A program made the position numbers and the translations under genes. This document shows positions 8,763 to 19,752 of a stretch of DNA of 24,308 nucleotides, in pieces. Each line of letters starts with the position of its first letter. Positions within the stretch are counted from its first letter, which is position 1. Location: IMG/VR virus record IMGVR_UViG_3300042556_002555, positions 1 through 24,308 of that record; one strand, written 5' to 3'. Under the pieces are notes generated by a model, which was not told the origin of the DNA, made no database searches, and saw only the letters and a list, made by a program, of their open reading frames with translations. This DNA comes from a virus.

Positions 8763-9479
8763 CTATTCACCATAGATGGATAATACTTCTTTAACTGCTT
8801 CGTGACGTTCTATATCCATCGCTGTAAATTCAGCAACATCAATATGCGTCAACTCTGGACGCTCGGCAAGCAATCTGCAAAAATCAATCAAACCATTGTC
8901 GTTTAATCTATCTGCTTGAGCCAAATCACCAGTTACAACCATTTGTGATCCTTCACCAATTCGGGTTAATAACATCTTCATTTGACTTACTGTTGCATTT
9001 TGCATTTCATCAGCAACTATATACGCATTTTTAAATGTTCTGCCTCGCATATACGCAAGCGGACTAATTTCAATAATACCTTCTTCTAAATATCTTGTGA
9101 TATCGCGTTTTTGATAATATTCAGAAAATACATCAAAAATTGGTCGAGTCCAAGGTGCCATCTTTTCTTCCAGTGTACCTGGTAAAAACCCTAAATCTTC
9201 ATCCACGCTTACGGCTGGTCTAGTCACAACGATTTTTTCAATCTTACCTTCTTGAAACAATTTAATACCGTTTTGTACGGCTAACATTGTTTTACCAGTA
9301 CCGGCTGGCCCAATAGCAAAAACAATACTGTTTGACTCATCTTGTAATTTATTTAAGTATTCTTTTTGACTTTTATTGCGCGGGGACAGCGTTACTTGTC
9401 TACGTTTTTGAGGCATGTAAGGTTGAAAATCTATTATGTTAACTTCTGAGGTAAAACGTTTTTTTACTTTTCTACTCAT
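8763..9479 (-). CDS. phoH: PhoH-like ATPase
   Basis: A 238-residue P-loop NTPase of the PhoH family. Walker A GPAGTGKT (57-64), VVTRPAVSVDEDLGFLPG (84-101) and Walker B VADEMQN (155-161), then VVTGDLAQAD, are all diagnostic. PhoH is common in phages of aquatic bacteria. Its biochemical role is unsettled: host PhoH is phosphate-regulated in E. coli, and related proteins are linked to RNA helicase or nuclease activity. The N-terminal 30 basic residues are typical of the short phage form. The ribosome binding site TAGGAGAT precedes the ATG. The 145 bases between this gene and the divergent gene at 9625 must hold its promoter, but I see no consensus box for it there. It shares a terminator with the convergent DUF2061 gene. 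Confidence 0.95.
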   Translation of the reverse strand: MSRKVKKRFTSEVNIIDFQPYMPQKRRQVTLSPRNKSQKEYLNKLQDESNSIVFAIGPAGTGKTMLAVQNGIKLFQEGKIEKIVVTRPAVSVDEDLGFLPGTLEEKMAPWTRPIFDVFSEYYQKRDITRYLEEGIIEISPLAYMRGRTFKNAYIVADEMQNATVSQMKMLLTRIGEGSQMVVTGDLAQADRLNDNGLIDFCRLLAERPELTHIDVAEFTAMDIERHEAVKEVLSIYGE

Positions 9480-9587
9480 TCAGTATCTCCTACTTGTGTG
9501 AGAAATCAGGACGTGTGGTAACCAGCTTGATAACCATATTGGTCCTGTAATAGTATTTACCTTTTATAAAAAATAAACTTTATTATA

Positions 9588-9595
9588 GATAAATA
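9588..9595 (+). promoter_or_regulatory. T4-type late promoter box (GATAAATA)
   Basis: GATAAATA is followed by further A/T, 29 bases upstream of the ATG at 9625, with AGGAAT between. It heads the unit that ends in the lysis genes. Confidence 0.5.
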
Positions 9596-9624
9596 AATAT
9601 AGAACATAATTAGTAGGAATAAAC

Positions 9625-10212
9625 ATGCATGATATTTTAGATGTCATTAAAAATATACAAAGTTTATATGAAAATAATTCTAGCTTGGCTGTATTAAAAG
9701 ATTTTGAAAGAGTATTAGATGAATTAGATTTATATGTATACGAAAATTGGATAGATGGCGAAATTGCGTATGGTCCCAAAGTGGACCGCCATTGGATTAC
9801 TGCGGGGTTTATGTGGCCAGAAAATAAAATGCCAGATCCAACTGGAGGAAAGCGGTTAGTAGAAAATGGTTGTAAATTGAAATATCAAAAATCTCAATTA
9901 ATATTACCGAGACCAATAAAAAACCCAGATGATGTTAGACCAGGTACTAAAAAGGGCAAACTAGATGAACACCCCATATGGATTGTTGAAATTAGAATGC
10001 CGAAAGAAGTTGCATTTGATATGTATCGTGGGTACATGAACAAAATGAAAAGTGAGAATAAATCATCAAATACATCTAAACAAGAATCACAAATCCCCCC
10101 ACCAGCAGCCGCTCCAACTGGAGCTCCCCCAATGAGTCCAGCTGGCACAGGGGCACCTGTAGGTGGATCGCCTGCCGGTACAGGCATGCCAGCACCAGTT
10201 CCAGGAGTTTAA
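9625..10212 (+). CDS. Conserved T4-like phage protein with Pro/Gly-rich tail, function unknown
   Basis: A 195-residue protein. Residues 1-140 form a conserved block I recall from T4-like marine phages (VLKDFERVLDELDLYVYENW, VDRHWITAGFMWPENKMPDP, PIWIVEIRMPKEVAFDMY). The remaining 45 residues are low-complexity and rich in proline, glycine and alanine (for example PPPAAAPTGAPP), probably a disordered linker or tail, with higher G+C than the surroundings. No enzymatic motif is visible. The ribosome binding site is TAGGAAT. The next gene starts 1 base after the stop. A virion role is plausible from the late box and neighbours but not shown. Confidence 0.85.
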   Translation: MHDILDVIKNIQSLYENNSSLAVLKDFERVLDELDLYVYENWIDGEIAYGPKVDRHWITAGFMWPENKMPDPTGGKRLVENGCKLKYQKSQLILPRPIKNPDDVRPGTKKGKLDEHPIWIVEIRMPKEVAFDMYRGYMNKMKSENKSSNTSKQESQIPPPAAAPTGAPPMSPAGTGAPVGGSPAGTGMPAPVPGV

Positions 10213-16167: not shown

Positions 16168-16210
16168 AAAGCCCAGTTAATCGATAAATACATATTATTA
16201 ACTGGGCTTT
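16168..16210 (+). terminator. Terminator of dnaJ-clpA with a late promoter box in its loop
   Basis: A perfect 14-bp stem, AAAGCCCAGTTAAT (16168-16181) and ATTAACTGGGCTTT (16197-16210), encloses a 15-base loop containing GATAAATA. It lies 6 bases after the clpA stop, and its right arm ends 3 bases before the next ATG. Confidence 0.85.
16183..16190 (+). promoter_or_regulatory. T4-type late promoter box inside the terminator loop
   Basis: GATAAATA followed by CAT. Transcripts starting just downstream would contain only the right arm of the hairpin, leaving the start region of the 16214 gene unpaired. Confidence 0.5.
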
Positions 16211-16213
16211 ATT

Positions 16214-16588
16214 ATGCGTATCAAAGAATTATTAGAAGGAAAAAACTTTAACGATTTAGATTTTGTAAAAACAAAAAATGATTCTGGTGAGAAAGAACTA
16301 GATTTTGATCTGGCCGATGATTTAATTTTTTACATGAATAATGACGATGATGTCTATCGAAAACATGTACATCCAGTCATTGCAAAATGCGTTAACGGAA
16401 AAAAAGACAACATGGAAATTAATCCGTCTGCATTTGCAAATGCAGTGAAGGAATGCTATAATTCGTATTTAGAAGAATACCCAATTCGTGAATTACCAGA
16501 TTCTTTAGATAATAAAACATTGAAAGAAATTTGTGAAAAATTCCACGAGGAGGTTCATAAACATATTGAAGATGGCAAATACAAATGA
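16214..16588 (+). CDS. Conserved phage protein with leader-like N-terminus, function unknown
   Basis: A 124-residue acidic protein: MRIKELLEGKNFNDLDF, DFDLADDLIFYMNNDDDVYR, YPIRELPDSLDNKTLKEICE. I recall similar short acidic proteins in T4-like marine phages without a known role. The first nine residues with LLE followed by G resemble the capsid-targeting leaders of T4 internal proteins. No good ribosome binding site is visible, because the start lies just after the right arm of the terminator. The stop overlaps the next start as ATGA, so it is co-translated with the nucleotidyltransferase genes. Confidence 0.82.
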   Translation: MRIKELLEGKNFNDLDFVKTKNDSGEKELDFDLADDLIFYMNNDDDVYRKHVHPVIAKCVNGKKDNMEINPSAFANAVKECYNSYLEEYPIRELPDSLDNKTLKEICEKFHEEVHKHIEDGKYK

Positions 16589-17238
16589 GCGGAAACGCAA
16601 TTAAAAATTCCAAACCAATTAAAAAAGAAGACTATTCAACTTTAATCACCAATCTAAAAAATGTATTGCCATATGGATTAAACATTTATCCATATGGCAG
16701 TATTGGAAAAAAAGAAATTAGTGGAGATGCTGATTTCTTTATTGATGCAGAAGAATTACTATCAATTTTACCGGCACAATACCCAGTTCCAAACATTTCT
16801 GAAAGCAGAAAATTGCTTCAACAATATTTTATCAATCAAGGTCTTGAATCAACCCGCTCTGGAGTATCTGTGTTTGTCGGTATACCAATGTATGATGAAA
16901 TAGTCCAAGTCGATTTAACAACAGTTGATGATGCATACAATATGATGTACCTACATGATCACGTGTATGAAAATGAAACTATGAAAGGAAAAGACGTTGT
17001 TAGTATCTGGTGTGATTTAGCTAACCTTACTTCAACTTCATTGAAGATTAGTCCATATAAAGGATTAGTCAATCGTGAAACAAATCAAATTATTGAAATT
17101 GATCCAGATAAAATTGCCAAAATCATCATAGGCCCTCATGCCAAAGTGCATGATATGCGATCACCTTCAAGACTGCTAGTAGCAGTCATACATGACCCAA
17201 TTAAATATCAACACATAAAAAATAACTATTTTCAATGA
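16585..17238 (+). CDS. Nucleotidyltransferase of the DNA polymerase beta superfamily
   Basis: A 217-residue protein. PYGSIGKKEISGDADFFID holds the superfamily signature: GS at 38-39, then D48-x-D50; the third carboxylate is likely D110 in IVQVDLTTVDD. These residues bind two metals and transfer a nucleotide to RNA, DNA, protein or small molecules. The substrate cannot be read from the sequence. Tail residues 145-217 (SPYKGLVNRETNQIIEIDPD) have no recognised motif. The start and stop both overlap neighbours as ATGA, so it is firmly in a unit with 16214 and the ligase-like gene at 17235. Confidence 0.85.
   Translation: MSGNAIKNSKPIKKEDYSTLITNLKNVLPYGLNIYPYGSIGKKEISGDADFFIDAEELLSILPAQYPVPNISESRKLLQQYFINQGLESTRSGVSVFVGIPMYDEIVQVDLTTVDDAYNMMYLHDHVYENETMKGKDVVSIWCDLANLTSTSLKISPYKGLVNRETNQIIEIDPDKIAKIIIGPHAKVHDMRSPSRLLVAVIHDPIKYQHIKNNYFQ
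16668..16698. repeat. Inverted repeat of two CCATATGG sites in the nucleotidyltransferase gene
   Basis: GCCATATGGAT (16668-16678) and ATCCATATGGC (16688-16698) are perfect 11-bp arms with a 9-base spacer. Each arm contains the self-complementary CCATATGG, centred 21 bp apart. They encode the two PYG tripeptides near the active site. Confidence 0.65.
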
Positions 17239-18308
17239 AAAAATACGGTAGGGCATTTAACCATTTAGAAGATTTAACTTTCTTTTATGGTTCTGATGGT
17301 GCGCTTGAAGCACTTCAACATTTAAAAGAAATTAATGATGATGCATCGTCTATGCGTATGAAATGGGATGGTGGACTTCAAATCTACTGGGGTCGAGAAA
17401 CAGAAGACGGCCCATTGATTTTTACTGGGCACAATGGATGGTCACGTGGTATTAAATCAACTTCTGGTAGTGAATTATTTGAATTCATCACAAAACATTC
17501 TGGTAAAAATAATTTAACGGTTGATGAATCGGTGAACCGTATTTTCTTTGCATCGGAATTTGCAAGTCTATATGAAATATTTGATAAAGCTACTCCAAGA
17601 GAGTTTGTTGGATTTGTATATGGCGACGCATTGTATAAAACACGCCCTATTTCATCTAACGGGTTCTTTAATTTATACCCTAATGGCAAAACTGGTTATC
17701 ATATTGATGATGATTCAGAACTAGGGATTAAAATACAAAATTCCGAATGTATGGTTGTTCTACATGCGTATTTCCCACAGTTTGGGTTAACCGATGATAG
17801 TCAGATACCAATGACAGATTTTTCATTTCTGGGCAATGATCAATTGATAGTGATAAATCCATATTATGCGTCTACTTCTATTAAAATTGATGTATCTGAA
17901 TTAGAACATCATATAATCATTACTAAAAACGATTTAGATGAGTTAATATCACCGATTGATAAAGTCAGTTCATATAAAGATTATTTCTATCGATATACTA
18001 ATTTTAAAGCTAAACAAAAAGAACTAGATACATTGGGTGATGATTTTACTATATGGCTGAAAAATAGCAATATAAGTAAAAATCAACAACAAAAAATTAT
18101 AAAACGTATTGAAGAATTCCCCGATGCAATAGAAAATATGTTTAAAACAGTTAAATACATAATGCATTTGAAAAATTCAATTATTGATCAATTGGAAAAA
18201 AATTCAGGTGATATAAAAACTTCTAATTCCGAAGGATGGGTTAGATATGCGGATGATAAAAAATTTGGGAATGTAAAATTTGTTCCGAGGCACCGATGGT
18301 TACCGTAG
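17235..18308 (+). CDS. DUF6267-like protein with ATP-grasping ligase motifs (KxDG)
   Basis: A 357-residue protein. MKWDGGLQIYWGRE has K43-W-D45-G46, matching motif I (KxDG) of covalent nucleotidyltransferases (DNA/RNA ligases and capping enzymes), in which the lysine receives AMP or GMP. EFVGFVYGDALY (123-134) could be motif III. EGWV (333-336) resembles motif IV, with K348 in VKFV as a motif V candidate. The N-terminus RAFNHLEDLTFFYGSDGALEAL matches phage proteins I recall under DUF6267. The middle (about 220-320) is helical and charged. No oligonucleotide-binding domain is evident. It overlaps its neighbours at both ends (ATGA; 13 bases). Nucleotidyl transfer is inferred; the substrate is unknown. 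Confidence 0.8.
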   Translation: MKKYGRAFNHLEDLTFFYGSDGALEALQHLKEINDDASSMRMKWDGGLQIYWGRETEDGPLIFTGHNGWSRGIKSTSGSELFEFITKHSGKNNLTVDESVNRIFFASEFASLYEIFDKATPREFVGFVYGDALYKTRPISSNGFFNLYPNGKTGYHIDDDSELGIKIQNSECMVVLHAYFPQFGLTDDSQIPMTDFSFLGNDQLIVINPYYASTSIKIDVSELEHHIIITKNDLDELISPIDKVSSYKDYFYRYTNFKAKQKELDTLGDDFTIWLKNSNISKNQQQKIIKRIEEFPDAIENMFKTVKYIMHLKNSIIDQLEKNSGDIKTSNSEGWVRYADDKKFGNVKFVPRHRWLP

Positions 18309-18826
18309 GTGTATGTTTTGGTAGGTTTAATCCCCCTCATAAAGGGCACCGAGAAGTTTGGGAAACTGCTGCTAAATGTGATGCTTATTATGTTGGTACA
18401 AATGCTAGTACTCGCGGTCCAAAAGATCCACTCCCATTTGATATCAAATTAAAAGCAATGTCCGCTTTATACCCAGATGTAGTGCAGCATGTCGTGCCAT
18501 CCCATAATATATTTTCTTTAGTAGTTAAAATATATCAAGAATTTGGGGAACATATAGAATTAAAAATATGCACTGATGAAGATTGGATAATTAATTCTTT
18601 ATCAAGGTACAATGGCATCAGTAGTTCGCATGGGTTTTTTAAATTTGCTAATATTACCCAACATATTACACCTAGATTGAGTTCTGCTTCAACATTAAGA
18701 GAAGCAGTGAAAAATGGTGATAAAGAATTATTCAGTGATGCAGCTGGAATATCAGCTGATACTGAAATTGAAATAAATAATAGAGTATTTAAATTCTTCG
18801 ATATTGTAGGAGAATTTATCGAATAG
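18296..18826 (+). CDS. Cytidylyltransferase-fold (HIGH-motif) nucleotidyltransferase, NadM-like
   Basis: A 176-residue Rossmann-like enzyme. GRFNPPHKGHREV has the GxFxPxHxGH motif (H15-x2-H18), and SSASTLRE (129-136) corresponds to the second nucleotide-binding motif (ISSTxxR). These define the group including NMN adenylyltransferase, FAD synthetase and CoaD. The product length suits a NadM- or RibF-like enzyme. Phages sometimes carry NAD-salvage enzymes, but no NadV/PncA partner is visible here; the neighbours are two other nucleotidyltransferases. The ATG at 18296 has GAGG upstream and overlaps the previous stop by 13 bases. Confidence 0.88.
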   Translation: MVTVGVCFGRFNPPHKGHREVWETAAKCDAYYVGTNASTRGPKDPLPFDIKLKAMSALYPDVVQHVVPSHNIFSLVVKIYQEFGEHIELKICTDEDWIINSLSRYNGISSSHGFFKFANITQHITPRLSSASTLREAVKNGDKELFSDAAGISADTEIEINNRVFKFFDIVGEFIE

Positions 18827-18840
18827 TTAAGGATAACAAA

Positions 18841-19752
18841 ATGAGTGATAATAGTTTAAATCCAAAAGCATTATTGGAAGGATTGTATGACATTCTTAAA
18901 AATAATGGCGAACGATTAGATGAAAAAGCAGAAAGTAAAGCCCAACAAAGATTAATGGGCATGGTACATGCGGCTCAACAAGGCGAAAAAGCTGCTAGTC
19001 CAACAGTTGCGAAAATTGCTAAATCAATGAAAAAGAAAGATGTCAAAGATTTTGCAAAAACAAAACACAAAGGTCTACCAAATAAAGTAAAAAAAAGTAA
19101 AAAAGTAAAAAAAGAATCGGGTGAGCCAGATTTGGTAGCTGATGAAGAATTAAAAATGTTTTCCAGGAAAAATGTCGGGAAACGTGCTGGTAGAAATCAA
19201 GTAGATAATCCATGGAATCAATTACACAAACGTGGACGTGGATATTCTTCACGTACAAGAAAACGTGTACGTGAAGAAGATGGTATGGAAGAATGTGCAG
19301 GTGTTGGAATAGTAAATAAACAAAACTCAACCCAGGATGTAGGATCCGGTACTCTTCAAAAAAATCTGTCAGCATTCAATTTAGAAGAAGCTATGCAAGA
19401 TATGGTTAATACTATGATGAAAGAAGGTAGATTGAGAAAAGGTACTGAATTGGCAGTTCCTGGCATTGAAACATGGGATCAGTTAGATAATAATAACAGC
19501 CCATATGCCGCTTATCGGTATGGCATTGCATTAGCTGGTGCGCCACACGATTCTATTGATAAAGGTGGTCCTGTTGGTGGTAATTTTGTCACGATTGGTT
19601 ATTCAGACGAAGATCGTAATATTATTGATGCAGCTGCTCGTAATATGGGTGTTTCTTCCAAAAAACAAGGAAATGATACATCAGTTGAATTACCGGATGT
19701 TAACAAAAAAAGTGTTATAGCCACACCAAAAAGAAATAGGTATGGTATATGA
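18841..19752 (+). CDS. Modular lysine-rich protein with DUF3008-like block, likely virion protein
   Basis: A 303-residue protein. Residues about 30-85 match the short bacterial DUF3008 family: KAESKAQQRLMGMVHAAQQG, then VAKIAKSMKKKDVKDFAKTK and HKGLP. A basic low-complexity segment follows (KKSKKVKKE; RGRGYSSRTRKRVREED). The C-terminal ~90 residues (SPYAAYRYGIALAGAP; FVTIGYSDEDRNIIDAAARN; KRNRYGI) form a module I recall from many T4-like marine phages. The N-terminus has LLEG at 12-15, like a head-targeting leader. The ribosome binding site is AAGGATAA. Its stop overlaps the next start as ATGA. A role inside the capsid or at the portal/neck is inference. Confidence 0.85.
   Translation: MSDNSLNPKALLEGLYDILKNNGERLDEKAESKAQQRLMGMVHAAQQGEKAASPTVAKIAKSMKKKDVKDFAKTKHKGLPNKVKKSKKVKKESGEPDLVADEELKMFSRKNVGKRAGRNQVDNPWNQLHKRGRGYSSRTRKRVREEDGMEECAGVGIVNKQNSTQDVGSGTLQKNLSAFNLEEAMQDMVNTMMKEGRLRKGTELAVPGIETWDQLDNNNSPYAAYRYGIALAGAPHDSIDKGGPVGGNFVTIGYSDEDRNIIDAAARNMGVSSKKQGNDTSVELPDVNKKSVIATPKRNRYGI

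Follow-up and report, generated by a model that had tools for sequence, protein, structure and literature searches.

We analysed a stretch of 24,308 bases (hereafter the window), the IMG/VR virus record IMGVR_UViG_3300042556_002555, which has a T4-like gene content (clamp loader, PhoH, Clp-type ATPase) and carries an operon of three different putative nucleotide-transfer enzymes. Four consecutive open reading frames (ORFs), overlapping by 4, 4 and 13 nt, code for a small acidic protein (ACID), a nucleotidyltransferase with a predicted fold nearest to DNA polymerase family X (NT), a DUF6267 protein with the motifs of the ligase/capping superfamily (LIG) and a HIGH-superfamily nucleotidyltransferase nearest to NadR and NadM (HIGH). 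The gene order and the active-site residues recur in many uncultivated T4 relatives, in most of which LIG, HIGH and ACID would probably be carried in the phage head, judging from their N-terminal leaders. We tentatively regard the operon as a module that mends nucleic acids, with a partner producing nicotinamide adenine dinucleotide (NAD), head-carried in most relatives, and give this reading somewhat less than an even chance. The features of the locus are:

16168..16210, plus strand: hairpin between the Clp-type ATPase gene and the operon (dG -20.8 kcal/mol, z -5.9 versus shuffles)
16214..16588, plus strand: ACID, small acidic protein, 124 aa; starts MRIKELLE/G, a T4-like leader with a predicted prohead-protease site (slash)
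16585..17238, plus strand: NT, 217 aa, minimal family-X-polymerase-like nucleotidyltransferase with palm and thumb (D48, D50, D110)
17235..18308, plus strand: LIG, 357 aa, DUF6267, putative ligase-type covalent nucleotidyltransferase core (motifs and Pfam match)
18296..18826, plus strand: HIGH, 176 aa, HIGH-superfamily nucleotidyltransferase nearest NadR/NadM (profile matches)
18841..19752, plus strand: DUF3008-domain protein, a frequent downstream neighbour (PF11450, 9.5e-7)

Gene order and active sites among relatives

The LIG profile matched at least 533 encoding stretches in IMG/VR; 80 LIG loci were fetched and scanned with in-house hidden Markov models, and fell into 58 LIG clusters at 95% identity. 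Neighbours were counted in the 39 non-redundant clusters with at least 2.5 kb of flank on both sides: LIG was accompanied by NT and HIGH in 21, by HIGH only in 12 and by NT only in six, and no cluster had neither. NT lies directly upstream of LIG, mostly with a 4-nt overlap (28 of 49 clusters), HIGH directly downstream (31 of 46), and an ACID homologue is found upstream of LIG in 31 of 49. The clusters are not fully independent, since they come from related phages. At three loci (L063:8089-9609, L078:8089-9177 and L084:8114-9139) HIGH is fused to a DUF3008-like region, and these fusions link the operon to the downstream DUF3008 proteins.

Residues G38, D48, D50, Q108 and D110 of NT are invariant among 27 aligned sequences, many of them only 22-30% identical to that of the window, as are K43, D45, G46, D131, E333, G334, V336 and K348 of LIG (44 sequences) and G9, R10, N12, H15, G17 and H18 of HIGH (21 sequences); conservation of this kind across homologues is, to judge from the alignments, not due to chance. 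A first-pass annotation made from the letters of the window had described a small acidic protein followed by consecutive pol-beta-superfamily, KxDG and HIGH-motif genes with overlapping stops and starts, as the ORF overlaps confirm, and the catalytic residues that it named are all present (G38-S39, D48, D50 and D110 of NT; K43-W-D-G and E333-G-W-V of LIG; GRFNPPHKGH of HIGH). That one translational unit combines three distinct nucleotide-transfer folds, as it proposed, is likewise borne out by the motifs, the conserved residues and the recurring gene order. It had set beforehand, as outcomes that would speak against a pathway, independent occurrence of the three genes and loss of catalytic residues across homologues; neither was seen, because the genes co-occur in order across the 39 clusters and the catalytic residues are conserved.

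Among cultured phages, DUF6267 is present in 411 records, nearly all of T4-like cyanophages, and is followed by the HIGH gene in Syn1, P-HM1, S-8S55 and S-MbCM6. Since this is a standing arrangement in T4-like cyanophages, two of the three operon genes are not new; the first-pass annotation knew of no described system with such a set. The cyanophage pair (DUF6267 and cytidyltransferase; T4-GC 71 and 190/534; phrog_455 and phrog_395) belongs to the same families as LIG and HIGH, adjacent and in the same order, and shares the KWDG, GDL, EGxV and K motifs (by eye, KWDGAPS, QGDLMF, PEGYV and KFVNR); it differs in lacking NT, in having an upstream gene from another, unnamed family, and in sequence, with only about 22-29% identity between cyanophage DUF6267 and relatives of the window's LIG. 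phrog_455 covers both DUF6267 and HIGH, consistent with fusions. In S-MbCM6, an in-frame stop splits DUF6267 into two annotated ORFs (L010:4866-5780). In cyanophages and in Melnitz, the genes found immediately before DUF6267 (L113:3481-4980, L115:3523-4980, L114:4863-5948, L116:3955-4989) fall into several unnamed families, some members of which show VEFK or SLK motifs recalling PD-(D/E)XK nucleases. Mel15, in this group, has the leader MQGFKTFLSE/A. We did not retain a nuclease reading of the cyanophage gene, as the likeness is by eye and there is no Pfam match.

The window's NT and LIG found no match among cultured phages by tblastn, nor did a divergent NT query. An NT homologue in the Agrobacterium jumbo phage Atu_ph07 (3.3e-16) surfaced only through the fold search; its gene overlaps another with KxDG, EGVV and K motifs, whose RNA_ligase match (E 0.002) is below the cut-off and covers almost the entire profile. 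A search of the Atu_ph07 genome for DUF6267 found none, and the Pol X-like enzyme thus pairs with two types of ligase, the Atu_ph07 partner being a KxDG gene outside DUF6267. Near the Atu_ph07 NT homologue, five related genes on the minus strand (L155, 416-4593) have capsid-targeting-like starts (MRLFQLLE, MRWHQLIE, MKWHQLTE and others); they resemble ADP-ribosyltransferases by eye, with no supporting Pfam match in the two that were scanned.

Nearest families and predicted folds

An AlphaFold2 model of NT (predicted local distance difference test score, pLDDT, 93) has a palm bearing the three catalytic carboxylates, D48, D50 and D110. Against the PDB, the best 50 Foldseek rows and the best 50 VIA rows were all family X DNA polymerases; the nearest folds among the listed matches were those of DNA polymerases mu (Foldseek, 4.4e-6), lambda and beta (VIA Z 11.1, root-mean-square deviation, rmsd, 3.3 over 165 residues) and of Pol X from African swine fever virus (ASFV; Z 10.9). 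The VIA alignment covers the thumb, extending to residue 335 of Pol beta and residue 174 of ASFV Pol X. Pol beta entries are so numerous in the PDB that BFVD, which has less redundancy, gives a fairer test of the fold; there, phage relatives ranked first and Pol X proteins of viruses next (1e-6 to 1e-5), with far weaker scores for a CCA enzyme (1.7e-2) and a poly(A) polymerase head (4.2e-2). In the model, then, the nearest fold of NT is that of DNA polymerase family X; the earlier label "pol-beta-type" had the superfamily right and was too broad. This assignment rests on predicted structure, because an hhalign comparison of the NT profile with single sequences (an approximate Pol beta sequence and the CCA domain of locus L031) was uninformative. 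Pfam gave no match for the window's NT and PHROG a single one, at chance level (E 0.41), and the 27 NT sequences gave no match to the RlaP family of Pfam, which we take to be PF10127 (scan at E 0.1; seven families listed). A review's table of DNA polymerase families has no phage member in family X (PMC8775771), and NT is a widespread phage candidate for a Pol X-like family.

LIG matches Pfam DUF6267 (PF19782; 47.5 bits, cut-off 27; best stretch residues 126-353), a known family without a function and not named in the literature searched (one paper collection). It contains motif I (K43-W-D-G), motif III (D131), motif IV (E333-G-W-V) and motif V (K348), and a helical insert of about 100 residues (about 221-321) between motifs IIIa and IV. 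It is the conservation of these motifs that carries the assignment of LIG, and with it DUF6267, to the ligase/capping superfamily of covalent nucleotidyltransferases, with K43 as the candidate lysine for adenylation. The 50 VIA matches listed for the AlphaFold2 model (pLDDT 94) are DNA ligases or RNA ligases without exception; the first six are RNA ligases, with Rnl2, REL1 and Trl1 in the lead (Z 6.0-6.4, where rows within 1 are tied). The best match, at Z 6.4, has an rmsd of 4.4 over 176 residues. The LIG profile had no match among PDB sequences, PF09414 (RNA_ligase, Rnl1/Rnl2) is not among the Pfam matches of LIG, and a search of bacteria and archaea confirmed no relative. LIG is not the replicative ligase, since seven of ten long relatives encode a separate DNA ligase of the gp30 type. 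As for cofactor, the chain before K43 is only 42 residues long and the Pfam matches of LIG do not include PF01653 (which is absent from the ten long relatives as well); LIG thus lacks a LigA-type Ia domain, and the idea that HIGH recycles nicotinamide mononucleotide (NMN) for an NAD+-dependent LIG is not supported.

HIGH carries the motifs GRFNPPHKGH and SSASTLR, the columns of which are conserved in homologues, and matches PF01467 (CTP_transf_like; 24.4 bits, cut-off 21) and phrog_3041/395. Its profile gave weak matches in the PDB to NadR (1lw7, 3e-4) and NadM (2qjt, 2e-3), and an NMN adenylyltransferase activity is plausible from these likenesses. The homologues are annotated as cytidyltransferases in PHROG and GenBank; several GenBank phage records label them "ribonucleotide reductase A", apparently a transferred misannotation. 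ACID matched no Pfam or PHROG family above the cut-off.

Leader sequences and probable virion carriage

A leader of the form M[KRL]xx[EDQ][FLI]...[LIFVY]xE, followed by the conserved domain, stands at the start of 55 of 64 LIG, 31 of 50 HIGH and 18 of 35 ACID homologues, where shuffled sequences predict fewer than 0.5 each; counts over whole contigs gave only 10 of 214 genes with it, and 6 of 246. The form is presumably that of T4 leaders such as the one of internal protein (IP) III. The T4 internal and ejected proteins (IP I-III, Alt) share the N-terminal M[KR]xxE[FL]...[LI]xE leader and differ in cargo, which in the operon consists of nucleotide-transfer enzymes. T4 Alt is cut at ITE-6 by gp21 (PMC5694885), and a gp21-type protease is encoded in four of the ten long relatives, which may be fragments. 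The cytidylyltransferase gp154 of S-CREM2, which appears in a mass-spectrometry list of virion proteins (PMC10665884), starts MKNFSSFLTE/A and is homologous to HIGH (6.7e-27). Similarly, a putative protein kinase is cited in S-CRM01 virions, and the kinase gene near DUF6267 in that phage, which we take to be the virion kinase, starts MISFDQFLSE/K; co-purification is possible for the listed virion proteins, as the authors caution (PMC10665884). On the strength of the leaders, LIG, HIGH and ACID are probably head-carried in most relatives, and ligase-like and NadR/NadM-like enzymes are predicted inside the virion. In the window's clade, the sequences indicate that LIG and HIGH have lost the leader and that ACID keeps one; the capsid-targeting leaders of the relatives lay outside the view of the first-pass annotation.

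A further leader was seen close to these genes: in L009, an ART-PolyVal ADP-ribosyltransferase (8880-9677; 1.6e-28), two genes past HIGH, starts MRAREFIFE/A.

Candidate functions and known counterparts

In the reading that we favour, NT would restore or fill in missing nucleotides at a break and LIG, after self-adenylation on K43, would close the strand in the manner usual for ligases. HIGH would supply NAD+, or a dinucleotide like it, in the early stage of infection at which these two act, and may serve NAD+ users such as the leader-bearing ART-PolyVal protein of L009. Leader-bearing LIG, HIGH and ACID would be packaged into the head, be shortened by the prohead protease and enter the cell along with the genome, and would act before new phage proteins are made; in the window's clade, packaging would need a piggy-back mechanism, or has been lost. 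As the substrate, RNA (for example a tRNA cut by host defence) is slightly favoured over gapped DNA, because LIG has no OB domain, its Atu_ph07 counterpart is RNA-ligase-like, seven of the ten long relatives already have a gp30-type ligase, and a tRNA-nucleotidyltransferase protein is encoded near LIG in two relatives without NT (L031 and L032). The predicted Pol X fold of NT favours DNA. That a virion-carried kit of a Pol X-like polymerase, a ligase of a new OB-less family (DUF6267) and an NMN adenylyltransferase mends tRNA or DNA before phage gene expression is, taken as a whole, doubtful; if true, it gives DUF6267 a function.

Several observations weigh against a mending module. Twelve of the 39 clusters lack NT next to LIG; NT is dispensable to the LIG-HIGH pair, and the gene set is modular. 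NT was also not found in the seven other cultured phages searched, so that most DUF6267/HIGH pairs work without it. Moreover, none of 40 NT homologues has a leader, the window's own NT, LIG and HIGH lack one (ACID alone has it), and in S-CREM2 the DUF6267 gene and the virion-detected HIGH gene are not adjacent. LIG has neither the OB domain nor motif VI, its chain ending nine residues past motif V, and for this reason it falls outside the definition of a DNA ligase; its matches to solved ligases are weak (best Foldseek E 0.08; VIA Z 6.4, within the background range). Finally, the GSxRRG arginine of Pol X is absent from NT, in which GS is followed by IGKK, AGHK or AATP, and a Pfam scan of the 27 NT sequences yielded no Pol X profile match better than chance, which is why we call NT Pol X-like and do not file it as a member. 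Among the pathways offered by the first-pass annotation, end repair is the best option.

The strongest alternative keeps the mending and specifies DNA: NT and LIG would fill gaps and seal nicks at damaged or incoming genome ends, much as Pol mu and Lig IV cooperate in non-homologous end joining or Pol X and ligase in viruses. The folds nearest to NT, which are DNA polymerases mu, lambda and beta and the ASFV and giant-virus Pol X, point this way; further proteins that carry this leader, among them an ADP-ribosyltransferase and a kinase-like protein, look like an ejected set. There is also a precedent in PgVPolX, a fusion of Pol X and an NAD+ ligase for base excision repair (PMC5537341); the ASFV and PgVPolX systems combine, like the operon, a minimal Pol X fold with a neighbouring KxDG ligase, and differ in belonging to eukaryotic viruses, the phage set having a LIG without OB domain, an NT without the GSxRRG arginine and an extra NadR/NadM-like gene. 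However, DNA ligases have the OB domain and motif VI that are missing in LIG, the Atu_ph07 partner matches RNA_ligase (below the cut-off), most long relatives already have the gp30-type enzyme, and a CCA-adding enzyme is found near LIG at two loci without NT. We consider the DNA version possible, at well under an even chance.

It is unlikely that the operon is chiefly an NAD+ module, in which HIGH would feed co-injected ADP-ribosyltransferases, or refill a pool drained by host defence, with LIG and NT secondary. The nearness of HIGH to NadR and NadM, the leader-bearing ART-PolyVal gene just downstream in L009 and the row of leader-bearing genes, ART-like by eye, beside NT in Atu_ph07 would all fit; a nicotinamide phosphoribosyltransferase is present in only one of the ten long relatives, however, and the tight coupling of NT and LIG would be left unexplained. 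Enzymes of the ligase fold that lack accessory domains, and those of the pol-beta fold, can have small substrates or proteins as their targets, and the three enzymes might thus nucleotidylate a host protein, or add a nucleotide or NAD tag to RNA, rather than mend strands. We hold such tagging to be improbable: the thumb of NT, aligned as far as residue 335 of Pol beta, points to a nucleic-acid end as the acceptor, and the literature searched contains no tagging system with such a set. Least probable is that HIGH is a cytidylyltransferase of nucleoside diphosphate-sugar synthesis for a surface polysaccharide, a role proposed for cyanophage HIGH enzymes (PMC7824862) and in line with the PHROG and GenBank annotation, given that no sugar-nucleotide or glycosyltransferase gene was recognised beside the operon in the window or in the inspected cyanophage regions and that the best profile matches of HIGH are NadR and NadM.

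RlaP was reportedly named in a 2016 survey of RNA repair. Together with Rnl1/Rnl2 RNA ligases it also places a phage pol-beta-fold nucleotidyltransferase beside a KxDG ligase (PMC7824862); the operon differs in that NT has no RlaP-type Pfam match and is nearest to Pol X, in that LIG is a DUF6267 protein, and in the addition of HIGH. Thus, pol-beta enzymes with RNA ligases (PMC7824862), viral Pol X with a ligase (PMC5537341) and injected T4 proteins are known already; new, as far as one paper collection goes (earlier mention elsewhere is possible), are the combined set, the phage Pol X-like family, the assignment of DUF6267 to the ligase superfamily and the DUF6267 leaders.

The tRNA-nucleotidyltransferase protein of L031 (8833-11469), near a LIG locus without NT, is 878 aa long, has a CCA-adding/poly(A)-polymerase head (9e-36) and starts MKINDVTLQEG, which resembles the leader. 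A CCA-adding enzyme as a general stand-in for NT was rejected, being confined to two near-identical loci (L031/L032).

Upstream of the operon, the hairpin at 16168..16210 has an uninterrupted outer stem of 14 bp and four inner pairs, with GATAAATA (16183-16190) in its apical part. The late promoter that the first-pass annotation had placed ahead of the operon is not supported, in that GATAAATA is one mismatch away from TATAAATA and sites of this kind are not enriched, numbering 74 in the window against 87 expected from shuffled sequence; the hairpin is possibly a terminator with an embedded late promoter. Elsewhere in the window, two adjoining endonuclease genes occupy positions 257-2103, a phrog_655 homing endonuclease on the minus strand and a phrog_8420 gene on the plus strand.

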